Origin: a virus
Direction: 5' to 3' (one strand)
IMG/VR virus record: IMGVR_UViG_3300006874_000126
Coordinates: 1 to 25,320 of that record
DNA length: 25,320 nt
The position numbers and the translations under genes were made by a program. Below are positions 1 to 9,346 of the stretch, in pieces. The notes beneath the pieces were generated by a model. The model ran no database searches. It had not been told where the DNA came from and was given only the letters and a program-made list of their open reading frames with translations. The first letter of the stretch is position 1; each line of letters opens with the position of its first letter.

Positions 1-2809
1 GAGCGTTTCCAGCTGCACCCAATATTCCTTGTTTACCGGCATATGCCAAAGAGTAGGGTCCGGCGTTCGCTGCCATAAAGTTTGCAGCAGCTTGAGCAGT
101 CATCTTAGCACCCAGCTGTGAAATACCACCGCCGAGCATGCTGGCCAGTCCGCCGCCTTTAAACAATTGATATATACCCAATCCGCCGCTTAGTGCGCCA
201 CCAAGAGTTGTAGAATCACCATTAAAGATGCTCATTATAGCACCAAGCCCGCCAGCAAATCCGCCAGGCCCAGCGAGTGCACCTTTAATTCCAGCCATTC
301 CAGTTCCAGGCGTTAACAAACTTTTCGTAACGTCAAACGCGGCGTTAGCACCAACACCCGATAATCCAAGTTTCTCCGTTACAGTAGATCCTAAAAGTGC
401 GGTTAATGGATTCATGCCTCCAGTGCCACCACCAAAACCTGGCGTACTAAAAATACTTTTTCCTACACTAGTACCGCCACCACCTACTTTAAATAAATTA
501 GTAAATTCAGATACGGTTTCTTTAAGGCCACCAAAAGTATTTTTGAAGAATCCCGAAACGCTATCAAACAATCCGCCCTTACCTTTACCTAAAAGATTTC
601 CGAGTGCATCACCTATACCACCCAACGGGCTGTCATTGCCAAAAATATTTTTAAATATTGTTCCTAACGGCCCACCACCTTCTTGCCCCTTGAGCAAAGG
701 CCCAAGCAATCCTCGAACAAGTTCAGACTGACCAGCCAACATTTTATCAACACCACGAGAATATTCTTCCCGCATTCTAGTGTTGAGTTCTTCCTGTTGT
801 GCTGCCGCAGCATCAGCAAGTCTCTGTTGATGCAATTTTTCTTCTTCAGAGATTTCAATGGAGGCTTCCGTTATAGCCTCGGTCTGATCTTTTGTATCGG
901 ATTTAGTTGGTAATTGTTCATCTGGTGTATAAGATTCTTTGGCAATTTCAGAGTCTTCAGCTAATTTCTTTTCTTGTTCCGCAAGATAATTATAGAAAAA
1001 AGTTCTTTCATTTTCTATGTCAGCCATTTTGGCATCATAATTTTGTTTAGATTCGGTCCCGAGCGATTTTATCTCATCGTCTATCTCCCCTATTCTTTCT
1101 TCCCTACCTTTATTGTCGGTAGCTGGGACGTATCTATCAAATTTTTTATTACCAAGTTTCAAATTTTCCCTAGACACACTTTCCGGCAAATTATCCGCGA
1201 GCCAATATGGCATCGCATCAAAGGCATCGTCAATAAACCCATTGATTCCATCTATAATCCCGTTGATTACCGATTCGTACCAAGAAACTATATTGTTCAT
1301 AAGCTTGCTAGCAACATCTTCTGTACCAAATTCTATATTTTGTATCCACCACTTTTTAAACTGTAACCCTTGTTCAATAAACCAATCACCAATTTCACTC
1401 ATCTTCAAAACCATTAAAGCAACAGTTTCTTGGAAACTCCATTTTATTTCATTAAAAATCCCCAGCAAAGGTGCTGCTATTTGAAATTCTAACCAAGCTA
1501 AATCTTTTAATTTTTTATTAAGTTCGTTATCGTCCCCGTTAAACCAAGCAGTCCAAGCATCAATGCCTGTCCCTATCCAATCAAAAAGAAAATCAAAAAA
1601 TCCAGTTATTTTTTCTGTAAATATACCTTCGTTATCTCCCATGATTTTATCATAATCTGTCCCCGTTATCCACGAGGTCAATTTGGCTGCAATAAAATAT
1701 ATTGCATCAAAAAGTCCACCAACCCAACCACCAATAAATCCTGCAAGTCTTTCTGCGAATCCCAAGTCCTTAACATCTTTGTCGACCTGTTGTGCCAAAT
1801 AATCATCATCGAAAAATGCGTTTATGGCTCCGAATATAGGGCCCAACAACCTACCAAAAAACACCAAAAATTGTCGACCAACATTTAATATATTTTTTAG
1901 AAATTGAGATTCTTTAAGGAAAGCCAAAAACCTAGATACAACTTCAGTAGATTTTATTGCAGACAGTAAATTTTTTATTGTAGTTCCTATAGCTACAAAT
2001 GGCGCCATAATCTTTGTTATTAATCCGGTGGGACCAACAAATAAAGATTTTATTGCTGCAGCCGTAACAAGAAAAGGTTGTAACAATTTTTCTACAGTAA
2101 GACTTTCTTTTATTGAAGTTGTGAATGTTCTTAAACTAGAAAGAAACCTTTCATTCATGGTTTGTTGTAAAATTTTAAATTCGCCCTCAATAATTCTGGC
2201 TCCACCAAAATTTTGACCAAATCCTTGCAGTCTGGGTCCACCAATTCTTGGCGGTGTGGGTCCACCAATTCTTGGCGGTCTGGGTCCACCAATTCTTGGC
2301 GGTCTTATAGCCCGAGTGACCTGAGTAACACCACGGGCGGCCGCTTGGGCGGTTTGAGCAATTTGTCTAGAAGCTCGAATAATATCTTCAGTCCCAGCAA
2401 CAGTCCCAGCAAGAAATGGGGGTATAAGATCAGTGAGAGAAAATTCAAAATTTTCTTTATATCCGGTTGAACTTTTAGTTAATGCTTTGAGAATCTTTTC
2501 AAGTTTATCGTCCATCGACTCAAAGATTTTTTGCTGTTGTAGTTCAGCATATTTTCTTTCGCGATTATTTTCTTCTTGAAAACCTCTTTGACGTTTTTGT
2601 TCGGCTTGTTCTCTTTTATTTTTTCTATTATCCTGTTCTCGCGTTCGGGAAAACTCTTTTTTCAGAGCATCTATACCACTTTCCATGCCAGAAAATATAG
2701 CAGGATTTGCAGAATATACAGCAGATTTTGCGCCAAAAGCAAAATCTGATGCAGCGCCTTTGACTTTATCGCCAATGAAACCGCCGAATCTTTGTAAATT
2801 AGATGCCAT
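1..2809 (-). CDS. Probable tail tape-measure protein, C-terminus beyond window (gp29-like by position)
   Basis: Open on the minus strand from ATG at 2809 to the window edge (936 codons, no stop), so the gene is 3'-truncated here. It is placed directly after the gp26/gp51-like pair, where tailed phages carry the tape measure that sets tail length and binds the chaperones. Residues about 50-115 are very rich in K, R, E and Q and look like a coiled coil. Residues about 169-192 hold three copies of an RPPRIGGP-type octapeptide. Residues about 235-280 are hydrophobic and could cross a membrane. A second charged helical stretch covers about 590-680, and from about 770 to the edge the chain is Gly/Ala-rich and hydrophobic. 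AGAGAGAA lies just upstream of the start, and the gap to the preceding ORF is 15 nt. The tape-measure role is inferred from length, composition and neighbours; I see no clear sequence match to T4 gp29. Another large baseplate-hub or structural protein is the alternative. Confidence 0.7.
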   Translation of the reverse strand, partial: MASNLQRFGGFIGDKVKGAASDFAFGAKSAVYSANPAIFSGMESGIDALKKEFSRTREQDNRKNKREQAEQKRQRGFQEENNRERKYAELQQQKIFESMDDKLEKILKALTKSSTGYKENFEFSLTDLIPPFLAGTVAGTEDIIRASRQIAQTAQAAARGVTQVTRAIRPPRIGGPRPPRIGGPTPPRIGGPRLQGFGQNFGGARIIEGEFKILQQTMNERFLSSLRTFTTSIKESLTVEKLLQPFLVTAAAIKSLFVGPTGLITKIMAPFVAIGTTIKNLLSAIKSTEVVSRFLAFLKESQFLKNILNVGRQFLVFFGRLLGPIFGAINAFFDDDYLAQQVDKDVKDLGFAERLAGFIGGWVGGLFDAIYFIAAKLTSWITGTDYDKIMGDNEGIFTEKITGFFDFLFDWIGTGIDAWTAWFNGDDNELNKKLKDLAWLEFQIAAPLLGIFNEIKWSFQETVALMVLKMSEIGDWFIEQGLQFKKWWIQNIEFGTEDVASKLMNNIVSWYESVINGIIDGINGFIDDAFDAMPYWLADNLPESVSRENLKLGNKKFDRYVPATDNKGREERIGEIDDEIKSLGTESKQNYDAKMADIENERTFFYNYLAEQEKKLAEDSEIAKESYTPDEQLPTKSDTKDQTEAITEASIEISEEEKLHQQRLADAAAAQQEELNTRMREEYSRGVDKMLAGQSELVRGLLGPLLKGQEGGGPLGTIFKNIFGNDSPLGGIGDALGNLLGKGKGGLFDSVSGFFKNTFGGLKETVSEFTNLFKVGGGGTSVGKSIFSTPGFGGGTGGMNPLTALLGSTVTEKLGLSGVGANAAFDVTKSLLTPGTGMAGIKGALAGPGGFAGGLGAIMSIFNGDSTTLGGALSGGLGIYQLFKGGGLASMLGGGISQLGAKMTAQAAANFMAANAGPYSLAYAGKQGILGAAGNA
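2233..2304 (-). repeat. Three tandem 24-bp repeats inside the tape-measure gene
   Basis: Three head-to-tail units of 24 bp (2233-2256, 2257-2280, 2281-2304) are identical except for one base at 2256. On the minus strand they encode an in-frame Pro/Gly/Arg octapeptide repeated three times (residues about 169-192). This lies between a helical N-terminal region and the next helical part, so it is probably an extended, flexible linker. Near-perfect identity at the DNA level, including silent positions, suggests recent expansion. Confidence 0.9.
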
Positions 2810-2824
2810 TTAATTCTCTCTATA

Positions 2825-3022
2825 TTACCGTCTTCTAGACTGCATTTTCCTGTTTTGTTCTTCTATTTTTTCATTTTCTTTTTTCACATGTTCTGAAAGT
2901 AGAGCCAAATAAATCTCCCTTTCAAACGGTATCATATCTTCAAGTTCAGTCAAACTATATTTATGATGTTGCATCATAGCAAAGTTTGTTTTATAATAAT
3001 TTAAAAGATTGTCATGAGACAA
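2825..3022 (-). CDS. 51: gp51-like tail assembly chaperone ORF, probably made as a -1 frameshift extension of gp26
   Basis: This short ORF ends 15 nt before the tape-measure start. Its core LTELEDMIPFEREIYLALL resembles the small gp51-like baseplate-hub assembly proteins of marine T4-like phages, followed by a charged helical tail ending in RRR. The nominal start at 3022 is TTG with no Shine-Dalgarno in range; the first in-frame ATG codons (residues 15-16) would cut into the protein. The frame stays open upstream to 3055 and lies -1 relative to gp26, overlapping its 3' end. A slippery site at 3031-3040 would join them into a protein of about 313 aa: gp26 residues 1-245, then R-I-G from the overlap, then 65 residues of this ORF (its TTG being read as Leu). 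Family assignment is by motif and position; frameshift expression is inference. Independent translation from TTG coupled to the gp26 stop is the alternative. Confidence 0.75.
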   Translation of the reverse strand: MSHDNLLNYYKTNFAMMQHHKYSLTELEDMIPFEREIYLALLSEHVKKENEKIEEQNRKMQSRRR

Positions 3023-3052
3023 GCCTATGCGAAAAAATTTGCCATTCCCTCC
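3009..3052 (-). promoter_or_regulatory. Putative -1 programmed ribosomal frameshift cassette at the end of gp26
   Basis: On the minus strand, in order: GGAGGG (3052-3047), an internal SD-like element; two overlapping heptamers in the gp26 frame, A AAT TTT (3040-3034) and T TTT TTC (3037-3031), both fitting X XXY YYZ; the gp26 stop TAG (3027-3025); and TTGTC-TCAT-GACAA (3022-3009), a perfect 5-bp stem with a 4-nt loop starting 8 nt after the slippery run. The order and spacing match known bacterial -1 sites such as dnaX (upstream SD-like element, slippery run, downstream stem). The stem is short and AU-containing, so its stimulatory effect is uncertain. Confidence 0.65.
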
Positions 3053-3765
3053 AACTCAGTAGTCTCATCCTTTTCACATAGGGGACAAGTCCACTGAATA
3101 TCTTTTTTTAGTTTTGGCATAGAACTAAAAAAGTTTGTAATCTTTTCAAACTGTTCTTGCGACAGTTCATTTAGAAATTCTGAAATTTCTTCGTGCGTAG
3201 ATTCTGACGCAGGATATACATCATCTTTGTCAAAAATCACATCCACACAAGTAACTACCATATCGGTAATGACTTCGATTTGAGATTTTTCTGCCGCTTC
3301 TTGAATATTGTCTGCCATATTCAATGTTGGATATTTAAGTATAATTCCAATACCATCCTCTTCGTCCAATATAATTTTTGGATCGTGGCCTTCTTCTTTG
3401 AAGACTTCGACTTGTAATAAGTCCAACGCATACTGATAAGAGCCCTCACATTTTTCACCTTCAGAGTTTTCACCATTAAAGTGAGAAAGATTCAAATCAA
3501 TAATTTCACCAACAGAACGAGCCCGCAATTGTAAAAAAACATATTCCAAATCGAACATAGGCAGAGAATCTATGTCAATTTCCCCAACCACACAATTTGC
3601 GATAATTTGTTTTATTGCTCTAAGCATTTCTGATTGTTCTTCACTTTCTAATGCCATCAATAAAATTTTCTGCTCCTTAACAAGAAAGGGGCGATAAGTC
3701 AAATTGACTCCATTAGACGGGAGTGTCAACTCATGAGTTGCCGTTTTAATTTTTGGTAAAGCCAT
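3025..3765 (-). CDS. 26: Baseplate hub / tail assembly chaperone gp26
   Basis: This 246-aa protein resembles the T4-like gp26 family (T4 base plate protein), which acts in baseplate-hub assembly. Diagnostic parts are the N-terminal region with LTYRPFLVKEQKILLMAL near residues 23-40, an acidic middle, and a C-terminus with SMPKLKKDIQWTCPLC, giving a C227-x2-C230 pair followed by LEGMANFF. Only one CxxC pair is present, so a full zinc knuckle would need dimerisation or other ligands. T4 gp26 is 208 aa, so this one is somewhat longer. The start at 3765 has a strong AAGGAG (3774-3779 on the plus strand, 8 nt away). It lies 22 nt after the tail-tube-like gene. The last codons form a -1 slippery sequence leading into the gp51-like ORF, so two products are expected. 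Confidence 0.85.
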   Translation of the reverse strand: MALPKIKTATHELTLPSNGVNLTYRPFLVKEQKILLMALESEEQSEMLRAIKQIIANCVVGEIDIDSLPMFDLEYVFLQLRARSVGEIIDLNLSHFNGENSEGEKCEGSYQYALDLLQVEVFKEEGHDPKIILDEEDGIGIILKYPTLNMADNIQEAAEKSQIEVITDMVVTCVDVIFDKDDVYPASESTHEEISEFLNELSQEQFEKITNFFSSMPKLKKDIQWTCPLCEKDETTELEGMANFFA

Positions 3766-3787: not shown

Positions 3788-4594
3788 TCATTCCAAGTTT
3801 ATTTCAAAATTGTCGTAATCAACATTGTGATATCTGTACGCAAAAGTTACAGTAAATCTCTGATATGTATCATTTTCTTGCCAATTCAAATTCATGCTAC
3901 TTAACGCTATAGGATAAGCTTCGGCTAAAGTCGCAGTAACTACATTGTTAGACTCAGTATCCAACTGAACAACTTTTATACTACCAACAATGTTGTCGTA
4001 AAAGTTTACTTGTCCCGCAGATAGTATCGGATTATTCAGTCTAGATGTATTTTTAGGTTGCCCATTACCTATTATACCTTCCATCCAAATATCGAAAAAG
4101 GCTCTTTCATACATTTCTTTTCTTGCGAGGAAAGTTAACGTTATGTTATTATATATAGTCTCGTAAGGTAAAGTATAAGCGGCTCCGGCAGAAGTGTCTT
4201 GAGTAGTAGCCAAAGTCTTGCCTGGAAACTCTGCAGACTCACATACCATTTGCAGTTCTTTATCTCTAACCGCGTCGCCAGCTGCGCCGTTCACCCAAGC
4301 AGAAACAATTTCAGCCCAAATCGCAGAATTTACAGTAGATCCTCCGATTTCTTGTTGTACGGAAGAAAAGCCAGCAGCAATTAAATTGTTGCGTTCTGCC
4401 AACAATGAAAAAAGTTGTGCATATGTGAACCCATATTTATCTATAAGAGCCTTGTTTGCTGCAAGTTGGATTTGCTCATCAACAGACAATGAAAAAAGTT
4501 CAAAAAGAGGCGGAGGCTCAACTTGAACCAAAAATAGATTGGGTCTAACCAATTCCTTAATTACGGATTTAAACCGATTAATCGAGTATGCCAT
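3788..4594 (-). CDS. Tail-tube-fold protein (gp54 / gp19-like)
   Basis: This 268-aa protein has the pattern of the contractile-tail tube fold. There is an N-terminal strand 'RPNLFLVQV' near residues 17-25, a middle 'CESAEFPGKTLATTQ' near 118-132, then 'YETIYNNITLTFLARKEMYERAFFDIW' (144-170), and a C-terminal strand pair with 'SSMNLNWQENDTYQRFTVTFAYRYH'. These correspond to T4 gp19, gp48 and gp54, which form or start the inner tube. Residues about 31-117 make a large helical insertion compared with the simple gp19 tube subunit. That favours a baseplate tube initiator (gp54) over the major tube protein. The start ATG overlaps the previous stop (TAATG), with AGGAAAA just upstream. Its place beside gp26/gp51 and the tape measure fits an assembly-initiation role. 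The fold is fairly sure; the choice of gp54 over gp19 is not. Confidence 0.75.
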   Translation of the reverse strand: MAYSINRFKSVIKELVRPNLFLVQVEPPPLFELFSLSVDEQIQLAANKALIDKYGFTYAQLFSLLAERNNLIAAGFSSVQQEIGGSTVNSAIWAEIVSAWVNGAAGDAVRDKELQMVCESAEFPGKTLATTQDTSAGAAYTLPYETIYNNITLTFLARKEMYERAFFDIWMEGIIGNGQPKNTSRLNNPILSAGQVNFYDNIVGSIKVVQLDTESNNVVTATLAEAYPIALSSMNLNWQENDTYQRFTVTFAYRYHNVDYDNFEINLE

Positions 4595-5184
4595 TAAATT
4601 TTTCCTCGGCTATCTTTCCAAACTTCTTGAGCAGACGCCTTCTTAAAGTTTTCCATAGGCAAAAACAATGCCATGTCCCATTCTGTAGCAGTAATTTGTA
4701 AAAATGGTGTTTTGACATAAGAATATAAATATTTTTTTACCGTCGGTTTGAATGTTTTAAATTTTGACACACTTTTCAATAAATCATAACTAACTAAAAT
4801 TTTAGTTTCTTCGTCATACCTTTTGTCCGACACTACTGTATACAAAGCGTCCATTAGTTTAGCTCTCAAATTAAACGGTAAATAGTGAAAATTTATACCC
4901 AAAAATCCATCATTATAAAGTTCTGCTGGAAAAACTAGCGGAAACACATCATAGTAAGGTAAAGTTTTCTTATGTTTAGGATCATACTTAAAGGAATACA
5001 TATACCCAGGCTCTGGTCGACCAACTCGCTTTTTTTCGGAAAATTGGCGAACAACCGAAGACGGCCGAAAATCTCCCGAAGCTTGAGAAGCGGCGTCTCT
5101 ATACCATGTGCGAGCAGCTTTCGTTCTTGCAGGAATTTGCCCTGTTCGCACACCGTTATATATTAGTTCTTTAAATACTATCAT
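4594..5184 (-). CDS. Conserved T4-like phage protein of uncertain role (possible gp2-type DNA end protector)
   Basis: This 196-aa basic protein begins with a stretch I associate with a conserved protein beside gp4 in marine T4-like phages: FKELIYNGVRTGQIPARTK. Other recognisable blocks are YDPKHKKTLPYYDVFPLVFP (about residues 67-86), 'GINFHYLPFNLRAKLMDALY' (about 95-114) and 'EWDMALFLPMENFKK' near the C-terminus. No enzyme motif, signal peptide or membrane segment is visible. Because genes 2 and 4 are close together in T4, a gp2 (DNA end protector/head completion) role is a reasonable guess, but I cannot confirm homology. A baseplate or neck role is equally possible. An exact late-promoter octamer lies only 6 nt upstream of the start, and no Shine-Dalgarno is visible. 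The stop overlaps the start of the tube-like gene. Confidence 0.7.
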   Translation of the reverse strand: MIVFKELIYNGVRTGQIPARTKAARTWYRDAASQASGDFRPSSVVRQFSEKKRVGRPEPGYMYSFKYDPKHKKTLPYYDVFPLVFPAELYNDGFLGINFHYLPFNLRAKLMDALYTVVSDKRYDEETKILVSYDLLKSVSKFKTFKPTVKKYLYSYVKTPFLQITATEWDMALFLPMENFKKASAQEVWKDSRGKI

Positions 5185-5199: not shown

Positions 5200-5646
5200 T
5201 CACTTCAACTCTTTTTCGGTCATTATTTTAAATTCCCACTTACGATCTTTGCAATAATCAATTGCAGCCTTCCACTTTGCTTCGTTCACACCCCATTCAA
5301 ACACTTCTTGAATATATCTTTGAGTTTTTTTTGATTTCTTAGGACGCATTGTTTTAGAATACGGCTTAACCTCAATCAATAACACTCGTATTTTACCAGT
5401 GTCATCTTGAATTTTAACTTTGAAGTCAACAAAATATCGATGCAATCTATTATCTTTAGGTGAAATATATGGTATAACAACTTCTTCCGAAGACCAAGAG
5501 ATAACGTTACAGTTATTGTCACAATACACCATAAATTTCCGTTCTAAAAGGCTCCTATAAATAATATTAGTAGGATCACCTTCGTATTTGGAATAATTTT
5601 TTGGTTTGAATTTTCCTTTGTAACCACGATATGTCATATTTTTCAT
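5200..5646 (-). CDS. 4: Head completion protein gp4 (PD-(D/E)xK nuclease-like)
   Basis: This 148-aa protein matches the T4 gp4 head-completion family. The N-terminus is 'YKGKFKPKNYSKYEGDPTNI', followed by YRSLLERKFMVYCD, 'SSEEVVIPYISPKDNRLHRYFVDF' and LLIEVKPYSK. It ends with 'EAKWKAAIDYCKDRKWEFKIMTEKELK', typical of gp4. The residues E35, D74 and E92-x-K94 form a TnsA/PD-(D/E)xK-type pattern, so a nuclease fold is likely. In T4, gp4 acts with gp50/gp65 in finishing the DNA-filled head before tail joining. I chose ATG 5646 over an upstream TTG (5658). ATG 5637 is also possible because the family usually begins just before the YKGKF block. No clear Shine-Dalgarno is seen for any of them. This is the first gene of the leftward block and is divergent from gp48. 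Confidence 0.88.
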   Translation of the reverse strand: MKNMTYRGYKGKFKPKNYSKYEGDPTNIIYRSLLERKFMVYCDNNCNVISWSSEEVVIPYISPKDNRLHRYFVDFKVKIQDDTGKIRVLLIEVKPYSKTMRPKKSKKTQRYIQEVFEWGVNEAKWKAAIDYCKDRKWEFKIMTEKELK

Positions 5647-5654
5647 TATAAATA
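5647..5654 (+). promoter_or_regulatory. T4-type late promoter (TATAAATA) for gp48 operon
   Basis: An exact TATAAATA on the plus strand ends 30 nt before the gp48 start, giving an expected transcription start near 5660 and a leader of about 25 nt that contains AGGAA (5674-5678). It lies immediately before the gp4 start codon on the other strand, so this 38-bp region must serve both divergent blocks. A weaker leftward candidate on the minus strand, CCTAAATA at 5676-5669 (6 of 8 matches), could start gp4. Confidence 0.75.
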
Positions 5655-5684
5655 ACAAACAGATATCTTATTTAGGAACATAAA

Positions 5685-7165: not shown

Positions 7166-8811
7166 TGCCTGCGCAAAAGTTTCCCGACTTAAACTCGCAA
7201 TCTACTTCAGCGGAAAGTGTTGTTGAATCCCATATTGCCGGAACTTATTCGTTAGAAAGAATTTCTCTAACACTCAGAAATGGTCAAGAAATATCATTAA
7301 GCGAAACTATGACCAGTTTGATATTATATGAAGACGTATATAATCCCAACATATCAGGATCAATCGAGATTATAGATTTCGTTGGTGGGTTAGAAAAATT
7401 TCAGCTTACTGGTGGAGAAACGATTAAGGTAAAAATTTACAAACCGAATTTGGAAGATATTCTTATAGACCGATCGGATTTGGTGGTTCATTCTATATCA
7501 AAGGGTAGAGTTGTCGCAAACAATTCGATACAATACAGTTTAGATTTTATTTCTTCGTCTGCTATTCGCTCTCAGAAAAAAAGAATATTCAAATCTTGGG
7601 GTAAAGAACGTAGCATATCAAAAATTGTAAAAGATTTGTGTTCGGAAATGAATACTCCGGTTAATATCTCAGACAGCATGCCCACACTGGATAAAACTTT
7701 TATTTGCCCCGGCTATACACCGACGGGAGCGATAAACTTTTTAGCAAAACGTGCGGGCGCAGTGGGTGATTATTTTTTATTTTTTGAAAGAGTTTCGACA
7801 GGAAAAGTTTTTGCTGGTATGTCTAATCTTAGGGCTTTAGCACCAAAGTTATCTGATGGTGACGGAAACAACATATACACAATTATATATCAGCCTTCTA
7901 TTACTTATAACGAAAGTTCGGGTGCTGAAACTAAGTTAAGAGCCGAGACGGTCGAGCCACAAGATAACTTTAATCATATATCGAATATGAGTAAGGGCTT
8001 GTACGAAAGTAAATTGACTAATATTAATATTGCTAGAAGAACATTCCGAACGTATGATTTTAATTATCGCAATCGTCCAAATGATTTTTATATAAATGAT
8101 ATTGTCAATAAGAATAGTATTTTTGGTAGGTTTGAAAGAAACGAAAAGCCCGGCGAGAGATTGTACACTCTAGCAATTAATGATCCAATGAAATCTAAAA
8201 CAGAATGGATAAAATCTGATATGCATGGGTCTCTAATGACAATGGGTATGAGAATTAATGTTACAGTTGATGGAGGAACAAATCAACTAGGCGCAGGAGA
8301 TATTGTTAACTTAATATTGCCTAGTGATTTTGCTAAAACTATAGATCCAAATTCTTCAGATGTTATAGAAAACAATATGTATTCGGGTAAATATTTTGTT
8401 ACTGCTTGCAAGCACATTATCACAAATGAAATATATAGCAAGTATATAGAACTTGCAAGATCTTCTGTAAGAGAAACTTTAGAAAATAATGATAGTTTAA
8501 TAGAAGATACGAGAGTAACTCCGGCTGAAGGATATTTAACTAACGCGACGCTAGAAGTGCGGCAGACAAGAACTACAGAAGATACGAACGCTGGATATTT
8601 ATCTGAAGCATACATAAGTAATTATGCTAGTTATTCTGAACAAGATGGACAATATGTACCCGACAATATACCACAAATAGAATCGCCAACAATTGTTTCC
8701 AACACTGATGCGAATGGAGTTGTGACACAATATGCAATAGACAGCAGAATAAAAACATCTGTAAGAACAGATATTATTAATAATGGTAATTTCGGCGACA
8801 CAGGAAATTGA
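7165..8811 (+). CDS. 27: Baseplate hub protein, gp27-like
   Basis: This 548-aa protein resembles the hub proteins (gp27) of marine T4-like phages, which form the ring under the tube and hold the gp5 spike. The N-terminal part 'SLTLRNGQEISLSETMTSLILYEDVYNPNISGSIEIIDF' (about residues 32-70) is the beta-barrel start common to this group. The next domain has 'SISKIVKDLCSEM' and 'GYTPTGAINFLAKRA' (about 150-195). A later barrel contains 'GAGDIVNLILP' and YFVTACKHIITNEIYSKYIEL. T4 gp27 is 391 aa; the extra length is mostly a polar C-terminal extension from about residue 435. The gp5-like gene starts two bases after the stop. T4 itself has 51, 27, 28, 29, 48 and 54 together, while here the hub gene is split from gp26/gp51 by strand. 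Confidence 0.8.
   Translation: MPAQKFPDLNSQSTSAESVVESHIAGTYSLERISLTLRNGQEISLSETMTSLILYEDVYNPNISGSIEIIDFVGGLEKFQLTGGETIKVKIYKPNLEDILIDRSDLVVHSISKGRVVANNSIQYSLDFISSSAIRSQKKRIFKSWGKERSISKIVKDLCSEMNTPVNISDSMPTLDKTFICPGYTPTGAINFLAKRAGAVGDYFLFFERVSTGKVFAGMSNLRALAPKLSDGDGNNIYTIIYQPSITYNESSGAETKLRAETVEPQDNFNHISNMSKGLYESKLTNINIARRTFRTYDFNYRNRPNDFYINDIVNKNSIFGRFERNEKPGERLYTLAINDPMKSKTEWIKSDMHGSLMTMGMRINVTVDGGTNQLGAGDIVNLILPSDFAKTIDPNSSDVIENNMYSGKYFVTACKHIITNEIYSKYIELARSSVRETLENNDSLIEDTRVTPAEGYLTNATLEVRQTRTTEDTNAGYLSEAYISNYASYSEQDGQYVPDNIPQIESPTIVSNTDANGVVTQYAIDSRIKTSVRTDIINNGNFGDTGN
8802..8806 (+). promoter_or_regulatory. Ribosome binding site that fixes the gp5-like start at 8813
   Basis: AGGAA lies 6 nt before ATG 8813, inside the last codons of the hub gene. 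An upstream in-frame ATG at 8783 has no such site and would add ten residues that do not resemble the family, so 8813 is preferred. Confidence 0.75.
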
Positions 8812-8812
8812 T

Positions 8813-9346
8813 ATGTTTTTAGGTAAAGAAGGCTTCGTTTGGTGGATAGGTGTTGTAGAAGGAAATTTAGATCCTGCATTGCTTGGTAGGGTTCAAGTTA
8901 GAATATTCGGTTATCATAGCGCAAAAGACACTAACGAGATACCGACAGAAGATTTACCTTGGGCCCCCTGTATGTTTTCTGCTAATGTACACGGAGCATA
9001 TGGTAGACCAAATCTTGGAGATTGGGTTGTTGGATTCTTCTTAGATTCACACGAAGCACAAGAGCCTATGGTTATGGGTATATTGCCTGGCAATGTCAAT
9101 TCTGATTTAGGAAGTGATGGGAATAAATGGTCAGTAGAAACAACACCTTCATTTCCATCAGTATACTATTCGGCTAATAATACAACAAACAGAAATGATT
9201 ATATTCATGAATTGGAAGGAAAAGTCAAGCTTCAGATGAGTTCTGATGATGAGAGAATAAGAATTAAAGCCAAATCTATAGAGTTTGAATTAGATGACGG
9301 TAGTGTTATAACAATCAAACAAATTAAAGATGCTTTGGGATTGTAA
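8813..9346 (+). CDS. 5: Minimal baseplate central spike, gp5/gpV-like OB-fold protein without lysozyme
   Basis: This 177-aa protein begins with the OB-fold seen at the N-terminus of T4 gp5 and in P2 gpV: 'FVWWIGVVEGNLDPALLGRVQVRIFGYH', then LPWAPCMF, GRPNLGDWVVGFFLD and 'QEPMVMGILPGNV' (residues about 8-100). The C-terminal part (about 135-177) has short strands, 'EGKVKLQMSSDDERIRIKAKSIEFELDDGSVITI', which may form a short beta-helix needle. T4 gp5 is 575 aa and carries a lysozyme domain; none is present here and no HxH metal-binding tip motif is visible. A separate tip (PAAR) protein or lysin must come from elsewhere if used. The start at 8813 is chosen from the AGGAA site. A 91-nt gap with promoter signals follows. 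Confidence 0.85.
   Translation: MFLGKEGFVWWIGVVEGNLDPALLGRVQVRIFGYHSAKDTNEIPTEDLPWAPCMFSANVHGAYGRPNLGDWVVGFFLDSHEAQEPMVMGILPGNVNSDLGSDGNKWSVETTPSFPSVYYSANNTTNRNDYIHELEGKVKLQMSSDDERIRIKAKSIEFELDDGSVITIKQIKDALGL

Follow-up and report, generated by a model that had tools for sequence, protein, structure and literature searches.

The gene 26 region of an uncultivated T4-like phage contains what is very probably a tail-assembly-chaperone operon that makes two proteins, a short chaperone (TAC-N) and a long one (TAC-NC), by means of a -1 ribosomal frameshift. We studied 25,320 bases of that phage (IMG/VR record IMGVR_UViG_3300006874_000126), a fragment referred to here as the window. Four properties that can be read from sequence carry the argument: the frame relation between gp26 and a gp51-like domain, a conserved slippery site, selection on an SD-like element, and the homology of the predicted fusion to T4 gp51.

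Phage lambda makes a short form and a -1 fused long form, G and GT, immediately before its tape measure gene (Xu, Hendrix and Duda 2004, reviewed in PMC5009743), and the same older review excepts T4 from the G-T frameshift. As cited in later papers, the work of Vladimirov, Gautam and Davidson (2022, Virology 566:9-15) established poly-T sequences as -1 signals in the TAC-N genes of T4-like phages (PMC12846349), some of which have separate short and fused genes instead (PMC10885494). As these papers describe it, that study deals with the same type of chaperone pair, produced by poly-T frameshifting or from two genes according to the group. Since a poly-T frameshift has already been reported for T4-like phages, the one predicted in the window belongs to a known kind. 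The abstract of the 2022 study reportedly names genes 26 and 51. The phage in the window is about 43% identical to named phages at the fusion. What may be new is the evidence for a selected SD-like element, for downstream structure confined to certain lineages, and for the loss of the run at the codon level in T4-type phages.

The Gene 26 Region of the Window

Four scans of viral contigs, a fifth that was small, and a set of named phages supplied the relatives, giving 328 loci that form 95 clusters at 70% gp26 identity. On the minus strand, the genes of the window run in the order gp4-like, gp2-like, tail tube family, gp26, the -1 ORF and a long ORF that leaves the window, with the following features.

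5200-5658, minus strand: gp4-like gene
4594-5184, minus strand: gp2-like gene
3788-4594, minus strand: gp54/gp19-like tail tube family gene, upstream of gp26 (phrog_45 tail tube, E=2.8e-35)
3025-3765, minus strand: gene 26-like ORF, predicted TAC-N (short tail assembly chaperone), 246 aa (PF12322, phrog_150)
3047-3052, minus strand: GGAGGG, SD-like element (anti-SD pairing peak; GAG codon excess)
3034-3040, minus strand: A_AAT_TTT, second candidate heptamer that overlaps T_TTT_TTC, unconserved (AAT in 21 of 93 clusters)
3031-3037, minus strand: T_TTT_TTC, slippery heptamer in the gp26 frame, candidate -1 slip site (T_TTT_TTN in 93 of 95 clusters)
3009-3022, minus strand: weak hairpin TTGTC-TCAT-GACAA with a 5-bp stem, clade-local (6 of 93 clusters versus 6.8 in controls)
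2825-3031, minus strand: -1 frame, gp51-like TAC-C (T) domain, 68 aa past the shift (phrog_634, phrog_150)
1-2809, minus strand: probable gene for the tape measure protein, 935+ aa, extending beyond the window (weak phrog_3981 match)

A tail tube gene followed by gp26 is also found in phiM19, nt-1 and P10VF. The ORF at 1-2809 is probably the tape measure protein gene, a weak assignment suggested by a weak match to phrog_3981 ("tail length tape measure," E=0.0016), by hydrophobic segments and by a location directly after the chaperone pair.

The -1 ORF, which carries the gp51-like domain, overlaps gp26; its frame is open from 3055 to a stop at 2825, is bounded upstream by a TGA at 3058-3056, and has the TTG at 3022 as its sole start codon near the gp26 stop. 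The GGAGGG lies 6 nt upstream of A_AAT_TTT and 9 nt upstream of T_TTT_TTC, the hairpin starts 8 nt past 3031, and a slip on either of the overlapping heptamers would yield the same 313-aa fusion, ...EGMANFFRIGLSHDN.... The original prediction had described the ORFs, their overlap, the heptamers, the GGAGGG and the stem, and all of these were verified in the window. It had also proposed a gp26 of 246 aa and a gp26-gp51 fusion of about 313 aa; the predicted lengths are 246 and 313 aa, and the comparisons that follow support both products.

Conservation of the Frame Relation and the Slippery Run

The gp51 domain lies in the -1 frame at 328 of 328 loci, as it did without exception in an initial set of 79 loci that have both parts, and T_TTT_TTN occupies the homologous in-frame site in 93 of the 95 clusters (34 of 35 at 50% identity), in agreement with the -1 frameshift that had been proposed. 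The heptamer is TTTTTTC in 75 of these 93 clusters, TTTTTTT in 15, TTTTTTA in 2 and TTTTTTG in 1; elsewhere in gp26, an in-frame T_TTT_TT has a frequency of 0.0009 per codon. From amino acids and codon usage, NNT-TTT is expected at 43% per gene and was seen at 100%. Given the amino acids, the probability of finding it in every cluster is 10^-38.8 with clusters treated as independent; their shared descent means that this and the other cluster statistics fall short of full independence. No cluster has a stop in the -1 frame between the heptamer and the domain. In 10 of the 93 a stop abuts the heptamer upstream, so that the -1 frame is closed directly before it and the shift is pinned to the heptamer. 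With its conserved in-frame heptamer and its open, conserved -1 ORF, the locus is, as judged from sequence, very probably a programmed -1 frameshift site.

A_AAT_TTT, which had also been offered as a slip site, was rejected. The codon before the T-run is AAT in just 21 of the 93 clusters, AGT in 30 and GAT in 29, and T_TTT_TTC is the conserved site.

A sequencing error, or the decay of a gene pair that was once fused, would also leave two domains in different frames, and both domains do share one frame in T4-type phages. Such an explanation has next to no probability and is refuted by the 328 loci, drawn from many samples and isolates, every one of which keeps the two domains intact and offset by -1.

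The T-run is absent from two Ackermannviridae clusters, RC-2014 and SE14, in which the site reads GAAATTTTCATTTAA or GAGATTTTCATTTAA. Both (L092:2280-2300 and L093:2175-2195) keep the -1 relation, and the RC-2014 junction contains TAATG, which suggests that they may rely on reinitiation or on a slip of another kind. The distance from the heptamer to the gp26 stop also varies: in Mosig-like phages (L082:4200-4232, and pelagiphage loci like it) gp26 runs about 8 codons past the heptamer to a stop some 25 nt downstream, and at most other loci the stop falls within 1-3 codons.

Start Codons and the Annotation of gp51

Were gp51 a separate gene, expressed by termination and reinitiation at the TTG at 3022 or at some other weak start, no fusion would be made. 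The TTG does lie just past the gp26 stop, a start codon is found no more than 20 nt after that stop in 28 of 93 clusters (ATG in 18), and GenBank records annotate gp51 as its own gene. All five Kyanoviridae records that we opened (Mosig, Melnitz, S-CAM3, S-PM2 and P-SSM2) give it as a separate, often truncated ORF. In S-PM2 and P-SSM2 the annotated start is just past the gp26 stop; in Mosig, Melnitz and S-CAM3 (L082, L083 and L084) it is inside the conserved domain, leaving truncated products of about 37-47 aa. Other matched records carry no gp51 annotation, and in several cyanophage records the sole entry at the match is "baseplate hub subunit." Against a separate gene, 50 of 93 clusters have no ATG, GTG or TTG in the -1 frame before +40 nt beyond the gp26 stop (66 have no ATG), the alignment places the beginning of the conserved -1 domain right after the heptamer, and a start farther on would delete conserved residues. 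In addition, phages with a fused gene 51 have lost the T-run, and gp51 of T4-type phages has both domains in a single ORF. We consider a separate gp51 very unlikely and favor the frameshift, with the proviso that in the 28 clusters with a nearby start codon a protein consisting of the C domain alone could be produced by its own initiation. The original prediction had asked whether relatives share the run; once aligned, they have a conserved X_XXY_YYZ run and an overlapping -1 ORF, and the opposite pattern, a clear start with no slippery run, was not found in the phage group examined.

The SD-Like Element

The -1 frameshift of E. coli dnaX involves an SD-like element about 10 nt upstream, a slippery heptamer and a downstream structure. 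The window resembles dnaX in the first two, and many relatives of its phage appear to resemble dnaX in the third as well; it differs in that the gene and the heptamer are other ones and its own stem is weak. Across the 93 clusters, pairing to the anti-SD at the 16S 3′ end peaks at the element (-5.95 versus a background of -0.80 kcal/mol), with the pairing core 8-10 nt before the heptamer in nearly all of them. The mean minimum dG is -6.12, versus -5.09 +/- 0.14 under synonymous resampling, and the element's Glu codon is GAG rather than GAA in 35 of 52 clusters, versus 15.3 +/- 3.1 expected. Judged by this codon choice, the SD-like element is under selection beyond protein coding. The SD-like word is missing in 14 of 93 clusters, so the element is common and not universal.

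These data also bear on whether the -1 product could be made by RNA polymerase slipping on the T-run instead of by ribosomes. All but two clusters do have runs of T6-T7, as transcriptional slippage would need, yet the run is short for polymerase slippage, and the codon phasing, the common final C (75 of 93) and an SD-like element at 8-10 nt all fit ribosomal slippage. We think a transcriptional origin extremely unlikely.

Downstream RNA Structure

Folding downstream of the heptamer was scored in 45-nt segments against dinucleotide shuffles. Over all clusters the mean z is -1.03 at +5 and -1.24 at +8, with a background of about -0.2, and the signal is found chiefly just after the heptamer. By group, the mean z is -1.28 for S-PM2-like phages, -1.41 for Mosig-like phages and -0.28 for the window's own group. 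By this measure, downstream structure appears to be selected in the cyanophage and pelagiphage relatives and not in the window's group as a whole. The 5-bp stem that had been counted as part of the frameshift cassette is present in the window and is not a conserved element: a 5-bp Watson-Crick hairpin occurs in 6 of 93 clusters, versus 6.8 in synonymous controls, and the window's stem has no clear covariation. S-PM2-like phages have far longer stem-loops, of about 10-16 bp (L085:2211-2260, and the corresponding positions in L119 and L086); these start no more than about 10 nt from the heptamer and are candidate frameshift stimulators.

Protein Families and the T4-Type Phages

The gp26 of the window matches PF12322 (E=1.1e-59) and phrog_150 over positions 5-232 (E=2.9e-65); the -1 ORF matches phrog_634 (E=1.4e-28) and phrog_150 over positions 227-281 (E=1.4e-9). 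T4 gp26 and T4 gp51 are paralogues, both belonging to PF12322, and T4 gp51 spans phrog_150 positions 14-280 in one frame, which makes it an in-frame fusion with the same C-terminal domain. Its C-terminal segment is also matched by phrog_150 and phrog_634, and a profile of the -1 domain finds the C terminus of gp51 in T4 (E=5e-4), 44RR (1e-7) and 60AhydR15PP (1.5e-9), with the search space set to 20,000. The T4-type gp26/gp51 family that had been named for these genes is thus upheld by the profiles; "hub catalyst," the function attached to it, is a historical label.

A viral-contig scan with T4 gp26 yielded six loci, and nine T4-type phages were taken from a phage collection. In all 10 T4-type phages with a separate gene 51, T4 included, gene 26 ends without the slippery run. 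Phe-Phe is retained in six of these, spelled TTC TTT or TTC TTC; T4 gene 26 reads TTC TTT where the relatives have TTT TTC. We suggest that these phages lack the heptamer because they carry a ready-made fusion gene. Aeh1 and nt-1, which are Straboviridae by their records, retain T_TTT_TTC, and it seems that the switch to a separate fused gene took place within the Straboviridae.

For structure prediction, gp26 and the C domain were folded separately. The AlphaFold model of gp26 has a pLDDT of 91.7, and the PDB entry that it matches best in fold is 2ob9, the tail assembly chaperone of HK97, at a weak and non-significant level (E=0.51, prob 0.66). The gp51-like C domain gives a helical model (pLDDT 75.9), and a Foldseek search of it against viral models returned no significant match.

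Discussion

We propose that most ribosomes would translate gene 26 to its end and release TAC-N (246 aa). In a minority, GGAGGG would pair with the 16S anti-SD 9 nt upstream of T_TTT_TTC, a -1 slip would occur on that heptamer, and translation would continue through the gp51-like domain in the -1 frame to give TAC-NC (313 aa). By analogy with lambda gpG and gpGT, the tape measure protein would be bound by many copies of TAC-N and a few of TAC-NC, whose C domain would recruit tail tube subunits. That slippage occurs, how efficient it is and how the chaperones act are matters that we infer.

The likeness to lambda G/GT is one of gene arrangement, a short form and a predicted -1 fused long form ahead of what in the window is a probable tape measure gene; the window differs in having a T-run with an SD-like element. 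The link from gp26/gp51 to the lambda chaperone system, as first drawn from the window, is supported by comparative evidence: T4 gp26 and gp51 are one family, gp51 is an in-frame fusion, and the run is lost in T4-type phages, which together indicate that genes 26 and 51 are a TAC-N/TAC-NC pair. PF12322 and the C-terminal domain are common to T4 genes 26 and 51 and to the genes of the window. The difference is that in T4 the long form is a separate, divergently transcribed gene on the opposite strand from gene 26. T4 would therefore have its short and long forms as two genes, and most relatives appear to frameshift for the long form.

In a larger context, it is likely that marine and freshwater T4-like phages use a dnaX-style frameshift, in which T_TTT_TTC is preceded at 8-10 nt by an SD-like element and, in cyanophages and pelagiphages, followed by lineage-specific stem-loops, and that within the Straboviridae a separate fused gene 51 took its place and the run then decayed. 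The T4-type phages serve as a natural control: the run persists where the frameshift is needed and is missing where a fused gene has taken over. The marine T4-like gp51, annotated as a stand-alone "baseplate hub assembly catalyst," would instead be the C-terminal half of a protein made by frameshifting.

Two other ORFs of the window deserve mention. A short gp5-like ORF at 8783-9346 (187 aa) matches only the N-terminal part of hub/tail lysozyme families, and the lysozyme part is absent from it. A 2,089-aa ORF at 16010-22279 matches phrog_358 and phrog_877, both of unknown function, and its C-terminal stretch is tail-fibre-like.
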